From Phascolarctobacterium sp. ET69 (GTDB taxonomy: Bacteria > Bacillota > Negativicutes > Acidaminococcales > Acidaminococcaceae), in NCBI RefSeq assembly GCF_023336935.1, contig NZ_JAMBLR010000001.1, forward strand, positions 434,001 to 498,000: a DNA stretch of 64,000 nt. The letters run 5' to 3'. Shown piece after piece: positions 28,148 through 35,624 of this stretch. The notes beneath the pieces are model-generated. The model did not search any database and was not told the origin of the DNA. It saw nothing but the letters and a program-made list of their open reading frames with translations. A program made the position numbers and the translations under genes. How positions within the stretch are numbered: position 1 is the stretch's first letter; each line of letters begins with the position of its first letter.

Positions 28148-28275
28148 ACAATATTTTTAAAACAAATCTATCTGGTATATTAATATTTAATTTATAATTA
28201 TTTATGTCGTTTTCACATGTTTTTTTCTGCATATATTACGCATTATACTGTGTCTTTTTGTATTTTTCAATTTTT

Positions 28276-28929: not shown

Positions 28930-29364
28930 TTATTTAACAGCAACATATAACATACATGCTGCAAAAATATATGCAATATTCCTTTGCCGCTCAAGGTTCC
29001 GGCGTTCTTTCTTCATTTCGTTGCTTAATTCTGTCAACGATTCGTTGGCATTTTGTAATTGCGTCTGCTGCAGTTTCGAGGTTACGGTCAAGGCTTTCAG
29101 CTGTTCCTTTAGCTGCATCGACTGTTGTTTCGCTTCGGTCAAGGACGTCTGCAAGTCTGTCAACTGTTTCTGTAGCATTGCCGATTCCGTCTTGGAGTTC
29201 GCGATTGCTTTGGACGCTCTGTTTAATTCCACCTCTAACGTTGTCAATTCCTGCGCCGTTATCGTATATGTTTCCGCAGCTTCGCAGGAAGTATGCGGCA
29301 CAAAAAGCCAAAGCAACGATAACAATACCAATATAAAGGCGATTATTAGATTTTTCTTGCTCAT
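28930..29364 (-). CDS. coiled-coil protein with N-terminal signal and C-terminal TM (spanin candidate)
   Basis: 144 aa. The N-terminal hydrophobic signal (LIIAFILVLLSLLWLFV) ends in PHTSC, a weak lipobox. Then comes a long coiled coil with clear heptads (LTTLEVELNRASKAI ... LKEQLKALTV) and a short C-terminal hydrophobic segment (IAYIFAACMLYVAV). A lipoprotein-like front plus a C-terminal membrane anchor is the layout of a one-protein (u-) spanin, which fuses inner and outer membrane at lysis. It lies in the lysis cassette and starts inside gene 28991-29371 in another frame. The role is inferred from architecture and place. Confidence 0.65.
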   Translation of the reverse strand: MSKKNLIIAFILVLLSLLWLFVPHTSCEAAETYTITAQELTTLEVELNRASKAIANSKTESAMLQKQLTDLQTSLTEAKQQSMQLKEQLKALTVTSKLQQTQLQNANESLTELSNEMKKERRNLERQRNIAYIFAACMLYVAVK

Positions 29365-29371
29365 TTTTCAT
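28991..29371 (-). CDS. membrane-anchored coiled-coil protein, overlaps the spanin candidate (i-/o-spanin partner?)
   Basis: 126 aa in a different frame of the same strand as 28930-29364, sharing about 370 bases. It has an N-terminal hydrophobic segment (LYIGIVIVALAFCAAYFL followed by RSC), then a heptad-rich coiled coil (GIGNATETVDRLADVLDRSETT ...) and a Pro-rich end. ATG 29371 has GGAGG with 5 intervening bases, better than that of its overlapping partner. Both frames encode convincing coiled coils, as in nested Rz/Rz1 genes, but one could be an accidental frame. Confidence 0.55.
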   Translation of the reverse strand: MKNEQEKSNNRLYIGIVIVALAFCAAYFLRSCGNIYDNGAGIDNVRGGIKQSVQSNRELQDGIGNATETVDRLADVLDRSETTVDAAKGTAESLDRNLETAADAITKCQRIVDRIKQRNEERTPEP

Positions 29372-29492
29372 GCGTTCCTCCATACACCGCCGCATTTGGC
29401 TTGTGCGCCGTTTTTACAGCTTTTGCATAAAAGTATAAGCGGCACTGTTAAAAATCAGCGCACGCGCCATCTGTGCAAGCGGTTATTTTTGG

Positions 29493-30904: not shown

Positions 30905-31960
30905 ATGAAAAAACAACGAAAACGCTTAAAACTACCAAACGGGTATGGCAGCGTAACCATGCGCAAAGATACCCGCCGCCGCACACCTGGTATTGTCCGC
31001 GTGCCAATTAATGGCAAGCAGGTAACCATAGGCTATGTGGCAACCTACGAAGACGGGCTTGCGATGCTTGCTGAATATCACAAGGACCCCACCCGCTTTA
31101 TAAACAATAACATCACCTTTGCTGATGTATATCGTTTTATGCGCGCCGAACACTGGCCTAAAATCGCCGCTAGCACAGCTAAGAATTACGAATCCGCTTA
31201 CAAGCATTTGAGCTGCCTATATAAGAAAAAATTTATTGAATTGCGTACCGGCGATTTGCAGTCTGCTATTTTACAAGCAGAAAAGAACGGTGCTGGATAC
31301 GGTATGCAGAAAAAGATTAGGCAGGTAATGCACTTTTGCTATAATTATGCCGTTAAGTACAACATTATAAAGCCGGATATGGATTACAGCCGCTATGTAG
31401 AAATTGGCCAGCATAAAATACTGTATCCCAAAAGCCCTTTTAACACACGTCAGTTAAACCGTGTTAAAGGGCTTATTACAACTGATAACCCTTTGGCTAA
31501 ATGGGCTATGTGCGTAGTCATGATGTGTTATTCCGGCGTGCGGCCATCAGAATTTTTATCAATCGTCAAAAAGGATGTAAAAATAAGGCCGCGTTATTTT
31601 ATAGTCCGTGATAGTAAGACGGAAGCCGGGAAAAACAGACCGGTCCCGATATCAAAAAAGACTTCGGTATATTTCCAATATTGGATGAACAGCCCTGGAA
31701 AATATTTAATTACCGACGACAAAGGCAACCGCCTTAATTATTCCCGCTTTCGTACTCGTTTTGATAAGGTTATGAAAGCAAGCCGCTGCAAACATACACC
31801 GCATGAATGCAGGCACACCTGCGCAACAATGCTTGATAATGCCAACGCCAATGAAACAGCAGTAAAACGCATTCTTGGGCACGCATCAGATGGCGTTACA
31901 AAACGTGTTTATACTCATAAATCCCTCCACGAATTAAAACGTGCAATAGACATGATTTAA
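30905..31960 (+). CDS. tyrosine recombinase, probable DNA invertase of the tail-fibre array
   Basis: 351 aa. Residues 1-60 form a small basic arm-/AP2-like DNA-binding domain (KLPNGYGSVTMRKDT...), ~70-160 the core-binding domain, ~175-345 the catalytic domain. Catalytic residues are visible: Arg213 (GVRPSEF), Lys238, His300-x-x-Arg303 (HECRH), His326 (LGHAS) and Tyr336 (VYTH). It is one of the very few plus-strand genes in the phage and lies beside the fibre cassettes, as rci lies beside the R64 shufflon. The alternative is that it is the phage integrase; the junction at 28.1 kb is only about 3 kb away. Confidence 0.9.
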   Translation: MKKQRKRLKLPNGYGSVTMRKDTRRRTPGIVRVPINGKQVTIGYVATYEDGLAMLAEYHKDPTRFINNNITFADVYRFMRAEHWPKIAASTAKNYESAYKHLSCLYKKKFIELRTGDLQSAILQAEKNGAGYGMQKKIRQVMHFCYNYAVKYNIIKPDMDYSRYVEIGQHKILYPKSPFNTRQLNRVKGLITTDNPLAKWAMCVVMMCYSGVRPSEFLSIVKKDVKIRPRYFIVRDSKTEAGKNRPVPISKKTSVYFQYWMNSPGKYLITDDKGNRLNYSRFRTRFDKVMKASRCKHTPHECRHTCATMLDNANANETAVKRILGHASDGVTKRVYTHKSLHELKRAIDMI

Positions 31961-32090: not shown

Positions 32091-32744
32091 TTATTTATCT
32101 GAGTTTTCGGTGTTTTGCACCGAAACATTCAGTGTGATTTCTTCAACTTCTGCTTTTGTGGTAGCAGCAGCAATTTCTTCTTTCGTAAGCCTGTAGGCCT
32201 CGTGTAGTGCGTTGCTACGGACTGCGACAGCGGCGATAACAGCGCGCAGGTCATTTGCAGTTACAGTCACGTTTGTATTATCGGCAGTAGTCCATTCAAG
32301 CGTTGCTTCCGCGCCTGCCATGTCAAGCGCAATAATAGCTGCGTTGATACGGTCACGGGCTTTTTCATCATAATCAAACCGGCTGCCGTTATAAGTAATC
32401 GGTTCAACTTCTTTTGCATCACGTTCTGCTTTCAGCGTTGCAGTTTTCTGTGCTTTTATTTCATCAAGTGACGGTTCATAAGGCGGTATTAAGCTTAATG
32501 TTCCTGTCGCCACATCAAGCTGATAGCCATTAAGCAGCGCATACTGAGTTAGCTTGTCTACCACTACCCCGTTCTGCTTCACATCGTCTGGGATATTGGT
32601 ATCGGTGACAAGGTATGTCGGCGATGTACGCTGACCATTTTCATCAAGCAGCACATAATACTTGTTGCCATTAAACCCAAGGTTTAACCCTTGTAATTCT
32701 TCCGGCACGTCATTAATTATAATTGCATTAATTTCGTTCGACAT
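32091..32744 (-). CDS. DUF4376-containing tail-fibre-associated protein
   Basis: 217 aa. The C-terminal two-thirds match the DUF4376 pattern (AQKTATLKAERDAKEVEPITYNG ... ARDRINAAIIALDMAG), normally found next to or at the end of tail fibres and thought to act in fibre assembly. Start at ATG 32744 with AAAGGATG. It is the first gene beyond the cassette array, and the outermost repeat (32768-32776) is about 10 bases from its ribosome site, so inversions leave it intact. Confidence 0.8.
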   Translation of the reverse strand: MSNEINAIIINDVPEELQGLNLGFNGNKYYVLLDENGQRTSPTYLVTDTNIPDDVKQNGVVVDKLTQYALLNGYQLDVATGTLSLIPPYEPSLDEIKAQKTATLKAERDAKEVEPITYNGSRFDYDEKARDRINAAIIALDMAGAEATLEWTTADNTNVTVTANDLRAVIAAVAVRSNALHEAYRLTKEEIAAATTKAEVEEITLNVSVQNTENSDK

Positions 32745-32768
32745 TTTAATCATCCTTTCTTTGCTTTG

Positions 32769-32999
32769 CAGTGGGGTTTAACAGAAGAAGCCTATTTGCC
32801 AACGATAGATTTTCCTGTATCCTTTACATCCATCCCTGCTGTTGTTGGTACGCCAATTAAGGATTATGCGACCAGCGAAAATTATTTTGGTAATAATTCT
32901 ATCGAAAGTGTAACTGCATCTTCGTTCGTACCACGCCAAACCAATACCAATGGTGGCACAAAAGCCGGTGCAATAAGGTATATTGCTGTAGGATACTAA
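32769..32999 (+). other. silent tail-fibre tip cassette 1 (inverted)
   Basis: 76 residues from QWGLTEEAYLPT to IRYIAVGY plus stop; gp53-like fibre C-terminal domain pattern (QWG ... FP.SF.S.PAVV ... Y.A.G). It has no promoter or ribosome site of its own. Confidence 0.88.
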
Positions 33000-33002
33000 T
33001 TG

Positions 33003-33230
33003 CAGTGGGGTTATACCATTGAGTCTAATGGCCAAGAAGATTATAAGTATTTCCCTATTTCATTTGGAAGTCAATGCTATGCAGTAAGTTTAGGTTCTAC
33101 ATACAACTTACAAAGCGACGCTTATTCTTGGATAGAAAATGTAGATAAAGAAAAATTTTTAATCGGATTAGGGCATAACTATTCGCCTATGCCTTATCCA
33201 ACTATGTTTTATATGGCTATAGGCGAATAG
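33003..33230 (+). other. silent tail-fibre tip cassette 2 (inverted)
   Basis: 75 residues, QWGYTIESNGQED ... MFYMAIGE plus stop. Same domain pattern, different middle. Confidence 0.88.
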
Positions 33231-33440
33231 CAGTGGGGAACAGCTGACGGCACGCGCGGCAATTTTACGACTAATTTAAACGTGCCATATTTAAACTTTT
33301 ATCTTCCCTATGCTTCATCAACAAATACCTACGGAACCGATATATGGACTGTATCAGCGCGAGTTGAAACTGATTTGTCAAAAATCGGTCTATCTTCCGA
33401 AGGCAACTTTGAAATAATTTGGTTAGCTATCGGAATGTAA
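33231..33440 (+). other. silent tail-fibre tip cassette 3 (inverted)
   Basis: 69 residues, QWGTADGTRGNFTT ... IIWLAIGM plus stop. It has no start codon at all, which shows that the module is not an independent gene. Confidence 0.88.
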
Positions 33441-33442
33441 TG

Positions 33443-33685
33443 CAGTGGGGTTATTTATCTTTTAGTGCCGTTGTGACAGCGCAAAAAGTAATTACATATC
33501 CAATTGCATTATCTGAAATTGCACTCCCGGTTGCTATAGCTATTGCAGAAAGCTACGGAAACGATGCAGGGCTTGCCATAAATAATGATTGTATGGGCAA
33601 TCACTATAGCAGTTGCGAATTTAATGTTATTTCTTACGGCACACAAAGGTGTGTAGGAATTATATTTGTTGTAATCGGCAAGTAG
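33443..33685 (+). other. silent tail-fibre tip cassette 4 (inverted)
   Basis: 80 residues, QWGYLSFSAVVTAQKV ... GIIFVVIGK plus stop. Confidence 0.88.
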
Positions 33686-33877
33686 CAGTGGGGTGATATT
33701 GTTGACGGCACAAATACTTTTACTGTAGCGTTTACTTCTTTTTGCAAAATTGCTAATGCCGGCAATTACTCATGGGGTGGTGACGATAATATTATCAGAA
33801 GTATTGAATTAACTTATTTTACTGCAACATATGCATATAATAGTTACCCATTTCTTTATATTGCAATCGGTCAATAG
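33686..33877 (+). other. silent tail-fibre tip cassette 5 (inverted)
   Basis: 63 residues, the shortest: QWGDIVDGTNTFTVAFTS ... FLYIAIGQ plus stop. Confidence 0.88.
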
Positions 33878-34120
33878 CAGTGGGGAATTGTTGAAAATAT
33901 AAAGCCGGAAACGCAGGTCACATCCGCCTTTCCAACAGTTTTTAGCAGTAGTAATTTTGCCGTTTTACCGGTGATTTTTGCGTGGGAAACCATAGACGAT
34001 ACAATCAGTGCATACTGCATCAGTAAAAATCTTTCAGAGGCGATTTTTCTGGCGGATACAGGACGAGATTATACCAGTACAAACTACGCAACTATCCTTT
34101 ATTTTGCTATTGGCCAATAG
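33878..34120 (+). other. silent tail-fibre tip cassette 6 (inverted)
   Basis: 80 residues, QWGIVENIKPETQVT ... ILYFAIGQ plus stop. Its end overlaps the end of cassette 7 inside a 20-bp palindrome. Confidence 0.88.
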
Positions 34121-34123
34121 CAA
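34104..34123. repeat. 20-bp perfect palindrome at the tail-to-tail junction
   Basis: The palindrome encodes the last codons and TAG of cassette 6 on the plus strand and of cassette 7 on the minus strand, so both end identically in A-I-G-Q. It marks where the two halves of the array meet. Confidence 0.85.
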
Positions 34124-34355
34124 TCCAGTTTGTTTTAAAGGTTTTTTCGGTATCATCAGTCTCCGCATCTAACGTCACTTTAAACTGACTTGTAGTAATC
34201 CCGCCTATTACAACATATTTATCAACGTCATAATCGTCATTAGTTACAACAAGATTAGCTGTTACAGCCCAGCAAGCCGAAAATGCAGTCGGGAATTTTA
34301 TCGTAGTCAGCAAAGTGCCAGAGCCGTTACCAGTAACGTTTTTAGAACCCCACTG
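34107..34355 (-). other. silent tail-fibre tip cassette 7 (same orientation as the fibre)
   Basis: 82 residues, QWGSKNVTGNGSGTLL ... TNWIAIGQ plus stop. It lies directly behind the stop of the expressed fibre, with the repeat spanning the junction. It could be expressed only after deletion or two inversions. Confidence 0.88.
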
Positions 34356-35624
34356 CTATTTACCAAAACAAAGATAAATACCGCGGCGTTCAGAGTTATC
34401 ACCAAAACCCGTCGTAATATCAAAATTATTTAATTCCAGATTAGCATAACCAATCATTTCGGTAGCGGCTTGACTCACTGCGATAACTGGGGAATACCAA
34501 TCCTGATATGGCAATGACAATACGACGTTATATTGTTTGCCTGCTGTTTGGAACAAACCCCACTGCAGAATTAGCCCATTGCTGAATTTTACATACCCAT
34601 TTTGCGCTAATAATTCATCAACAATTACTGCCCCACCAGCCAATGCCGAAATAGCCGCCGCAACGCCTGCCGCATTTATTGGCTTTGTTGTGTTCGTGCC
34701 GCCCTGTGCTTCTGTGGTCGTTGCAAAATCATATAAATCAGATATTAATTTAGCAGCAGCATCAAGTCCTGCGATGCCATTAGATGCGCCAAGCAGTTTA
34801 TCAATTAACTGCTTAACCTTTAATGCAGTCATAGGCTTTTTATCATCGGTCATACCTTCTGCTTCGGTTTGGCTTGCTACCGGTACATACGTTTTACCGC
34901 CAGTTAAAAATTTATCCTGGTCGCCTGCTGCCGGTGCCGGAACCATACCACGTTTACCAGCGGCTTCGGCTGTTGCGCCAGTAAAATCGCTTAAATCAGG
35001 CAAATTATTGAGATTGTTATAATCCAGTTTTGCACCATTTGCTCCGCCGCTGTGGTCATGTTGATAAATATTAATAATCTCCGGCCGCATATCAACGATA
35101 TTACTTTGCTGTATAACGGATGCATTAGCTGGCACTGTTACTTTCGCCAATGCAACCCATCCTTCCGGTGTTGTAGGCACAGTAGGTTCTGCCGCCGCTG
35201 TACCACCAACCACCTGGAAAGCAATAGAACTTGCTATTCTTGTTTTAACTTCCACCTGTGTAATATTGCGGCTCACTACATCAGTCATAACATTGCGGAT
35301 TTCCGGCTCATCTTCCACTTCTTCGTATTTTGCGCAAATTAAGTCAATACGCGGCTGGCTGGCGGATGCAGGTGCAATAGTAAGCGGAGTAGTTAAATCT
35401 GCTTCTAAAAGCCCTTGATATCCATTCTGGTAAATCCTTCCGGATTTTACATATACCGTCATATCCGGCACTGCCTGCGCAGTTACTTCTAATCCGCTTA
35501 CACAATCATTTGCGGCAATAAAATCCGAAATGGTAGTTATTAATCCGTTGTATAAATAAGCGTTATTATTATTTAAGTCATCACTCAAAAGCTCGGCATA
35601 ATCATTAAACTTTACTCTATGCAT
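34356..35624 (-). CDS. tail fibre with exchangeable C-terminal tip
   Basis: 422 aa. The N-terminus (~1-170) attaches to the baseplate (DUF-type fibre start, FNDYAELLSDDLNNNNAYLY), followed by a short collagen-free shaft with a SGGANGAKLDYNNLNNLPDLS turn typical of phage fibres. The last 69 residues from QWGLFQTAGKQYN to YLCFGK (34356-34565) are the gp53-like receptor-binding tip. The repeat GCAGTGGGG at 34558-34566 marks the switch point between the constant part (ending FSNGLIL) and the tip. It follows the tail-I-type gene and faces the cassette array. Confidence 0.92.
   Translation of the reverse strand: MHRVKFNDYAELLSDDLNNNNAYLYNGLITTISDFIAANDCVSGLEVTAQAVPDMTVYVKSGRIYQNGYQGLLEADLTTPLTIAPASASQPRIDLICAKYEEVEDEPEIRNVMTDVVSRNITQVEVKTRIASSIAFQVVGGTAAAEPTVPTTPEGWVALAKVTVPANASVIQQSNIVDMRPEIINIYQHDHSGGANGAKLDYNNLNNLPDLSDFTGATAEAAGKRGMVPAPAAGDQDKFLTGGKTYVPVASQTEAEGMTDDKKPMTALKVKQLIDKLLGASNGIAGLDAAAKLISDLYDFATTTEAQGGTNTTKPINAAGVAAAISALAGGAVIVDELLAQNGYVKFSNGLILQWGLFQTAGKQYNVVLSLPYQDWYSPVIAVSQAATEMIGYANLELNNFDITTGFGDNSERRGIYLCFGK

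Follow-up and report, generated by a model that had tools for sequence, protein, structure and literature searches.

The tail-fibre gene of a prophage in the gut-type bacterium Phascolarctobacterium sp. ET69 is accompanied by a series of short reading frames that all open at the same 9-bp repeat. The question this raises is whether these frames are interchangeable tips of the fibre, brought into use by DNA inversion, and which recombinase would then be responsible. The locus was studied within a stretch of 64,000 nucleotides, C1:434001-498000 of the host genome, referred to here as the window.

Arrangement of repeat sites and tip cassettes

GCAGTGGGG occurs eight times without a mismatch in a stretch of 1.8 kb, at six places on the plus strand and at two on the minus strand, versus a chance expectation of 0.29 (mean; maximum 2) in shuffled sequence. 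Sequence identity across all eight extends over these 9 bp and no further. A frame specifying Q-W-G begins at the second base of every copy and runs for 63-82 codons to a stop. The fibre ORF (34356-35624, minus strand, 422 aa) includes the site at 34558 and the tip belonging to it, so the tip encoded at 34359-34565 is the expressed one. In the following list the sites come from an exact repeat search, and the tips from their reading frames plus any further evidence given.

32768-32776, plus strand: site 1, GCAGTGGGG
32769-32999, plus strand: silent tip cassette 1, 76 aa, inverted (Gp53-like_C, E 1.3e-6)
33002-33010, plus strand: site 2, GCAGTGGGG
33003-33230, plus strand: silent tip cassette 2, 75 aa, inverted (Gp53-like_C, E 2e-8)
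33230-33238, plus strand: site 3, GCAGTGGGG
33231-33440, plus strand: silent tip cassette 3, 69 aa, inverted
33442-33450, plus strand: site 4, GCAGTGGGG
33443-33685, plus strand: silent tip cassette 4, 80 aa, inverted
33685-33693, plus strand: site 5, GCAGTGGGG
33686-33877, plus strand: silent tip cassette 5, 63 aa, inverted
33877-33885, plus strand: site 6, GCAGTGGGG
33878-34120, plus strand: silent tip cassette 6, 80 aa, inverted (Gp53-like_C, E 1.2e-5)
34107-34355, minus strand: silent tip cassette 7, 82 aa, direct (Gp53-like_C, E 7.8e-11)
34348-34356, minus strand: site 7, GCAGTGGGG
34356-34565, minus strand: expressed tip, 69 aa plus stop, coding 34359-34565 (AF2 model)
34558-34566, minus strand: site 8, GCAGTGGGG, within the fibre gene
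34567-35624, minus strand: tail fibre, constant part (ORF; PHROG tail fibre and virion structural matches)

Between like-oriented neighbouring cassettes, 0-2 nt separate the stop from the following repeat; when a TAG stop lies immediately 5' of the CAG, its G doubles as the first base of the next repeat. The sequence-only reading had described this layout (eight QWG modules of 63-82 aa, each opening at the repeat, one fused to the fibre, six inverted and one direct, with a spacer of almost zero), and the exact repeat count, the site strands, the ORFs and the measured spacers bear it out. The end motif that it proposed, hydrophobic-A-I/V/F-G-x, fits most tips but not those ending in FVVIGK or YLCFGK. 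Cassettes 6 (site 33877, plus) and 7 (site 34348, minus) converge, and their 3' ends overlap by 14 bp within TTGCTATTGGCCAATAGCAA, a perfect palindrome of 20 bp at 34104-34123; their ORFs therefore have their last codons and stops in common.

Twelve single inversions between a plus and a minus site are possible, as had been counted from the sequence, and the fibre stayed open when each was carried out in silico. Only six of them, in which the site within the fibre gene takes part, alter the expressed tip, rendering fibres of 416-433 aa that end in six other tips; the remaining six rearrange the silent cassettes. The seventh silent tip reached the fibre in two simulated steps, and 10,080 orders were reachable in all by simulated inversion.

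The expressed tip, as modelled, resembles fibre heads

When 62 QWG tips from a wider set were compared, Q1-W2-G3 alone was invariant and mean column identity was 19%. The Gp53-like_C family (PF21882) matched 46 of the 62 at E <= 0.05; in the window, tips 1, 2, 6 and 7 exceeded the curated cut-off of the family and the other four fell below it. The AF2 model of the expressed tip is all-beta (pLDDT 86.5). Its best PDB matches (E 0.01-0.1) were the fibre heads of cyanophage Pam1, R2 pyocin and AP22 gp53, together with Helix agglutinin, an H-type lectin. The tip is likely to be a sugar-binding receptor tip.

A tyrosine recombinase distinct from the integrase adjoins the array

A tyrosine recombinase gene, left unnamed in the sequence-only reading, lies ∼0.8 kb from the cassettes. 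This gene, the one that separates it from the array and the near end of the prophage are placed as follows.

28154-28176, no strand: 23-bp repeat, probable left attachment core (its partner, at C1:511290, lies outside the window)
30905-31960, plus strand: tyrosine recombinase, 351 aa, proposed shufflon invertase (PF00589 at 30905-31957, E 6e-23)
32091-32753, minus strand: DUF4376 gene associated with tail fibres, lying between the recombinase and the array (PF14301, E 5e-20; PHROG tail fibre protein)

The catalytic residues R213, K238, H300, R303, H326 and Y336 are all found in this recombinase and are invariant or nearly so across an alignment of its homologues (A1). Its AF2 model (pLDDT 84.7) has an additional N-terminal beta-beta-beta-alpha domain, which may be called arm-like from its modelled secondary structure; full-length lambda Int rows begin aligning at model residue 21-22.

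The prophage runs from the 23-bp repeat at window position 28154 to its copy at C1:511290, a span of ∼49 kb. The latter copy lies at the 3' end of a large host ORF, which we take to be that of the DNA polymerase III alpha subunit, and is adjoined by a 406-aa integrase ORF (L023 13015-14235) at the opposite end of the prophage from the shufflon recombinase. The possibility that the 30905-31960 enzyme is the prophage integrase was therefore rejected. A 24-bp repeat is present just inside each prophage end, and the two pairs of 23-24 bp (window 28154 and 28272; L023 14291 and 14217) are probably the attachment core and the arm-type sites of the 406-aa integrase. Also near the left end, at 28930-29395, two overlapping ORFs in different frames each weakly match Rz-like spanin families, possibly a nested spanin pair.

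Five further tyrosine recombinase genes are present in the host genome. Serine recombinases (PF00239) occur only on contigs C2 and C3, while the recombinase at the array belongs to PF00589. A diversity-generating retroelement was rejected since no RVT_1 match, and thus no reverse transcriptase, was found in the whole host genome. A search for the window locus in another order found no near copy of the constant part of the fibre among viral contigs or 59 genomes of the family, nor a second copy of the locus in the host genome, where it is single.

Homologous recombinases lie beside similar arrays

Recombinase homologues (31-62% identity in A1) were collected from whole genomes, genome contigs and IMG/VR, and their surroundings were searched for tiled, mixed-orientation cassettes with a common 8-mer and frame, ignoring the position of the recombinase. 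This detector overlooks two-cassette arrays as well as gapped or truncated contigs, and the rows it overlooked were read by hand. Arrays of 3-11 cassettes were detected in 34 of 117 homologous stretches, compared with one in the same sequences reversed; the 34 take in the window, its partial copy, two duplicate pairs and a probably false array (L037) that lies 5 kb from its recombinase. The array was within 1 kb of the recombinase in 31 of 33. Most of the rows read by hand (L065 and L104 excepted) either show two to five cassettes or break off, at an assembly gap or where the contig ends. Most homologues with a readable flank outside the sister-integrase clade carry similar cassettes, at sites of 9-11 bp.

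The nearest homologue (L001, 62% identity) has three cassettes, a different fibre type and the site AGGGCGG(A/G)GAT. The contig L024 (also 62%), from a Phascolarctobacterium of the host's family, matches the window in gene order and has four ACAATGGGG sites up to the contig end. The sites of other phages include ACAGTGGGGA, CCAGTGGGGA, CCAAGGGGGA, CCAGGGGGGA, ACAGGGTGGA and CCGTTGGGGA, with one constant sequence per phage. The wobble base of the Q codon and the base before that codon are invariant inside each shufflon but different between phages, as seen when the eight GCAGTGGGG sites of the window are set against the four ACAATGGGG sites of L024. This points to a DNA site rather than a protein motif alone.

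Several homologous loci depart from the usual layout. One has a recombinase 53% identical to that of the window beside a single-tip fibre that lacks silent cassettes (L027 9245-11229), and is perhaps a collapsed shufflon. Another bears ten cassettes in strictly alternating orientation (L028 5682-7927), where neighbouring sites stand head to head, 4 bp apart, forming the 20-bp palindrome CCACCCTGATAGCAGGGTGG. In a third the array-linked recombinase has an internal TGA, next to three collar-type cassettes at CCGTTGGGGAG (L030 7966-9640); this is possibly an inactivated example. Two related phages have in common a segment of 600 bp that is 98.5% identical and oppositely oriented (L104 7103-7702; L080 8706-9305), away from the cassettes of L080.

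In a first tree of 99 recombinases, 47 formed a supported clade (99/99) in which none had an array; all 34 array-linked recombinases, that of the window included, fell outside it, four of the 34 array labels having been set by hand. The root, the integrase of the prophage on a very long branch, was uninformative, and only the 47-member clade was used. The array label required 17 changes on this tree versus 28.4 in shuffles, a count due in part to truncated contigs scored as having none. In a second tree, rooted on a sister integrase, the members outside the 47-member clade formed one group of 55 (support 0.995). Related recombinases of named Butyrivibrio, R. gnavus and Fusobacterium phages were considered as further examples and rejected: the detector found no tiled cassette array beside them, and those that were placed sit on the shufflon-free side of the tree.

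Related phages differ by site-to-site inversions

Two prophages from two IMG genomes (L188 and L189) are identical over flanks of 1,483 and 6,143 bp, and their sole difference is one inverted segment of ∼430 bp. Inverting this segment in silico left 0 mismatches over 1,100 bp. The crossover could lie anywhere within the site CCAAGGGGGA, and the inversion replaces an expressed tip of 66 aa by one of 75 aa. The enzymes beside these arrays scored 366 bits on a profile of the shufflon side of the tree versus 249 on a sister-integrase profile. In one IMG genome, blocks that are 100% identical between L098/L181 and L185 have changed order and orientation, and overlap by 10-11 bp at ACAGTGGGGA; between L073 and L080 a two-cassette block is inverted at 99% identity. 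This evidence comes from assemblies of relatives rather than from reads, and the window phage is not among them. Cassettes common to different phages were also found.

Some assemblies have features that a mixture would give. An identical stretch of 53 bp precedes two different cassettes in L032, and one of 83 bp does likewise in L029, as expected if isoforms were mixed in the sample. In two cases a run of N begins at the site in the fibre gene or a little beyond it (L034 11130; L029 4678), as expected if several junctions coexisted there.

Comparison with known inversion systems

In the R64 pilus shufflon a tyrosine recombinase, Rci, inverts multiple cassettes that encode alternative C-termini of one protein, the adhesin of the conjugative pilus, at 19-bp sites. 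The analogy with R64 drawn in the sequence-only reading is only partly apt; the present locus is set apart by being a phage fibre locus with 9 invariant bp and no 19-bp sfx-type sites. The analogy with Mu and P1 does not stand: Gin and Cin of these phages, and the multi-site Min of p15B, also invert C-terminal segments of a fibre, but they are serine invertases with longer sites of their own, whereas in the window the enzyme is a tyrosine recombinase and the asymmetric site has 9 bp.

The right comparison is with the Rin shufflons of Bifidobacterium prophages, described in 2018, in which a tyrosine recombinase acts at 11-bp sites and inversions were seen in reads (PMC6109161). Like the element in the window, Bb423phi1 and its relatives are prophages with a tyrosine recombinase separate from the integrase, a constant N-terminus of the receptor-binding protein with several alternative C-termini, and a short asymmetric site opening each cassette (PMC6109161). 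The window has the same architecture: an adjacent non-integrase tyrosine recombinase, alternative in-frame C-termini and short asymmetric repeats that are partly inverted. The two differ in site (TTCCCTAACCC in Rin, GCAGTGGGG in the window), in number of tips (up to five versus eight), in phage type and in host phylum. The prophages of Eggerthella lenta clade 1 have a Rin-type shufflon as well, with the 8-bp asymmetric site ttccgtat (PMC8778435); it resembles the window in its tyrosine recombinase and in its cassettes, often with H-type lectin domains, and differs in its site and in belonging to Actinobacteria, a likeness drawn from the published description.

Rin loci were retrieved from IMG/VR via their paired sites. 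The Rin protein is ∼21% identical to the window recombinase over 285 columns, lacks the first ∼80 residues of the latter and starts near the core domain. On the shufflon-side profile it scored 39-43 bits, compared with 278-545 for members and 38 for an unrelated integrase. By sequence, then, the window recombinase falls outside the lineage of the Rin protein (armless, XerD-like), although the architecture of its locus is of the Rin type. Systems of this kind have been described before; for this recombinase lineage a search of open-access papers turned up no earlier account, though one may exist elsewhere. There is a good chance that the lineage is a widespread group of phage invertases that has yet to receive a name. 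These would be tyrosine recombinases that carry an additional arm-like domain at the N-terminus and shuffle fibre tips at a 9-11-bp site set in the tip-opening codons (QWG, QGG, VGE, etc.); clade, site and tip type would co-evolve independently of Rin.

Proposed mechanism and alternatives

We put at roughly 0.87 the probability that the locus is a receptor-tip shufflon of the ∼49-kb prophage, operated by the 30905-31960 recombinase. This enzyme would recombine oppositely oriented pairs of the 9-bp site, inside the Q-W-G codons, and the DNA between them would invert. With the site in the fibre gene as one partner, a different QWG-starting, lectin-like tip would become the in-frame C-terminus of the fibre; with two silent sites as partners, the silent store would be rearranged. 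The tip-swapping shufflon suggested by the sequence-only reading is thereby supported, on four grounds: the in-frame fusion at every site, an adjacent tyrosine recombinase dedicated to the array and separate from the integrase, the recurrence of this layout beside dozens of its homologues, and the site-to-site inversions between near-identical relatives. The tail-tip shufflon is real and probably active; from these grounds we infer activity in the window phage, catalysis by the adjacent enzyme and an effect on adsorption. Points that count against the shufflon are that the searches gave no second copy of this phage, that a conserved site of 9 bp is short for a tyrosine recombinase, and that one relative (L027) has the enzyme and the fibre but no silent cassettes.

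An array made by past inversion and now fixed in the lysogen, its recombinase silent or inactive, is an unlikely state of affairs. No alternative junction was found for this locus, which has one genomic copy and no near relative, as such fixation would have it; yet the recombinase gene has an uninterrupted reading frame that retains the catalytic residues, every silent tip is open and in frame, and the eight sites are exact. It is more doubtful still that inversion is the work of an enzyme acting in trans, whether the Xer of the host, the integrase of the prophage or a serine recombinase, with another role for the 30905-31960 enzyme. Recombinases of the latter's lineage adjoin such arrays across phages, almost always within 1 kb, and the serine recombinases of the host sit on other contigs; these observations are to be set against the five other tyrosine recombinase genes and the serine recombinases that the genome does offer, and against a phage inversion locus with no adjoining recombinase that has been described (PMC6109161).

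The repeats might also be no more than a conserved QWG domain boundary, with tips swapped by homologous recombination with other phages and no programmed inversion. QWG generally opens Gp53-like C-terminal domains (the 46 of 62 matching PF21882), so the protein sequence accounts for some of the constraint on the repeat, and different phages do have cassettes in common. This explanation is very hard to sustain, being already contradicted in relatives by the exact site-to-site inversions between near-identical genomes, and the base before the Q codon and its wobble base are fixed per shufflon yet vary among phages (GCAGTGGGG eight times in the window, ACAATGGGG four times in L024).

Significance

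Tail-tip switching determines which cells a phage can bind. With a recombinase, its site and dozens of matching arrays in hand, such switching becomes predictable from sequence in the phages of poorly studied anaerobes. The same loci provide natural enzyme/site pairs for studying how a tyrosine recombinase acts on a 9-bp conserved site, and how inversion is favoured over deletion.
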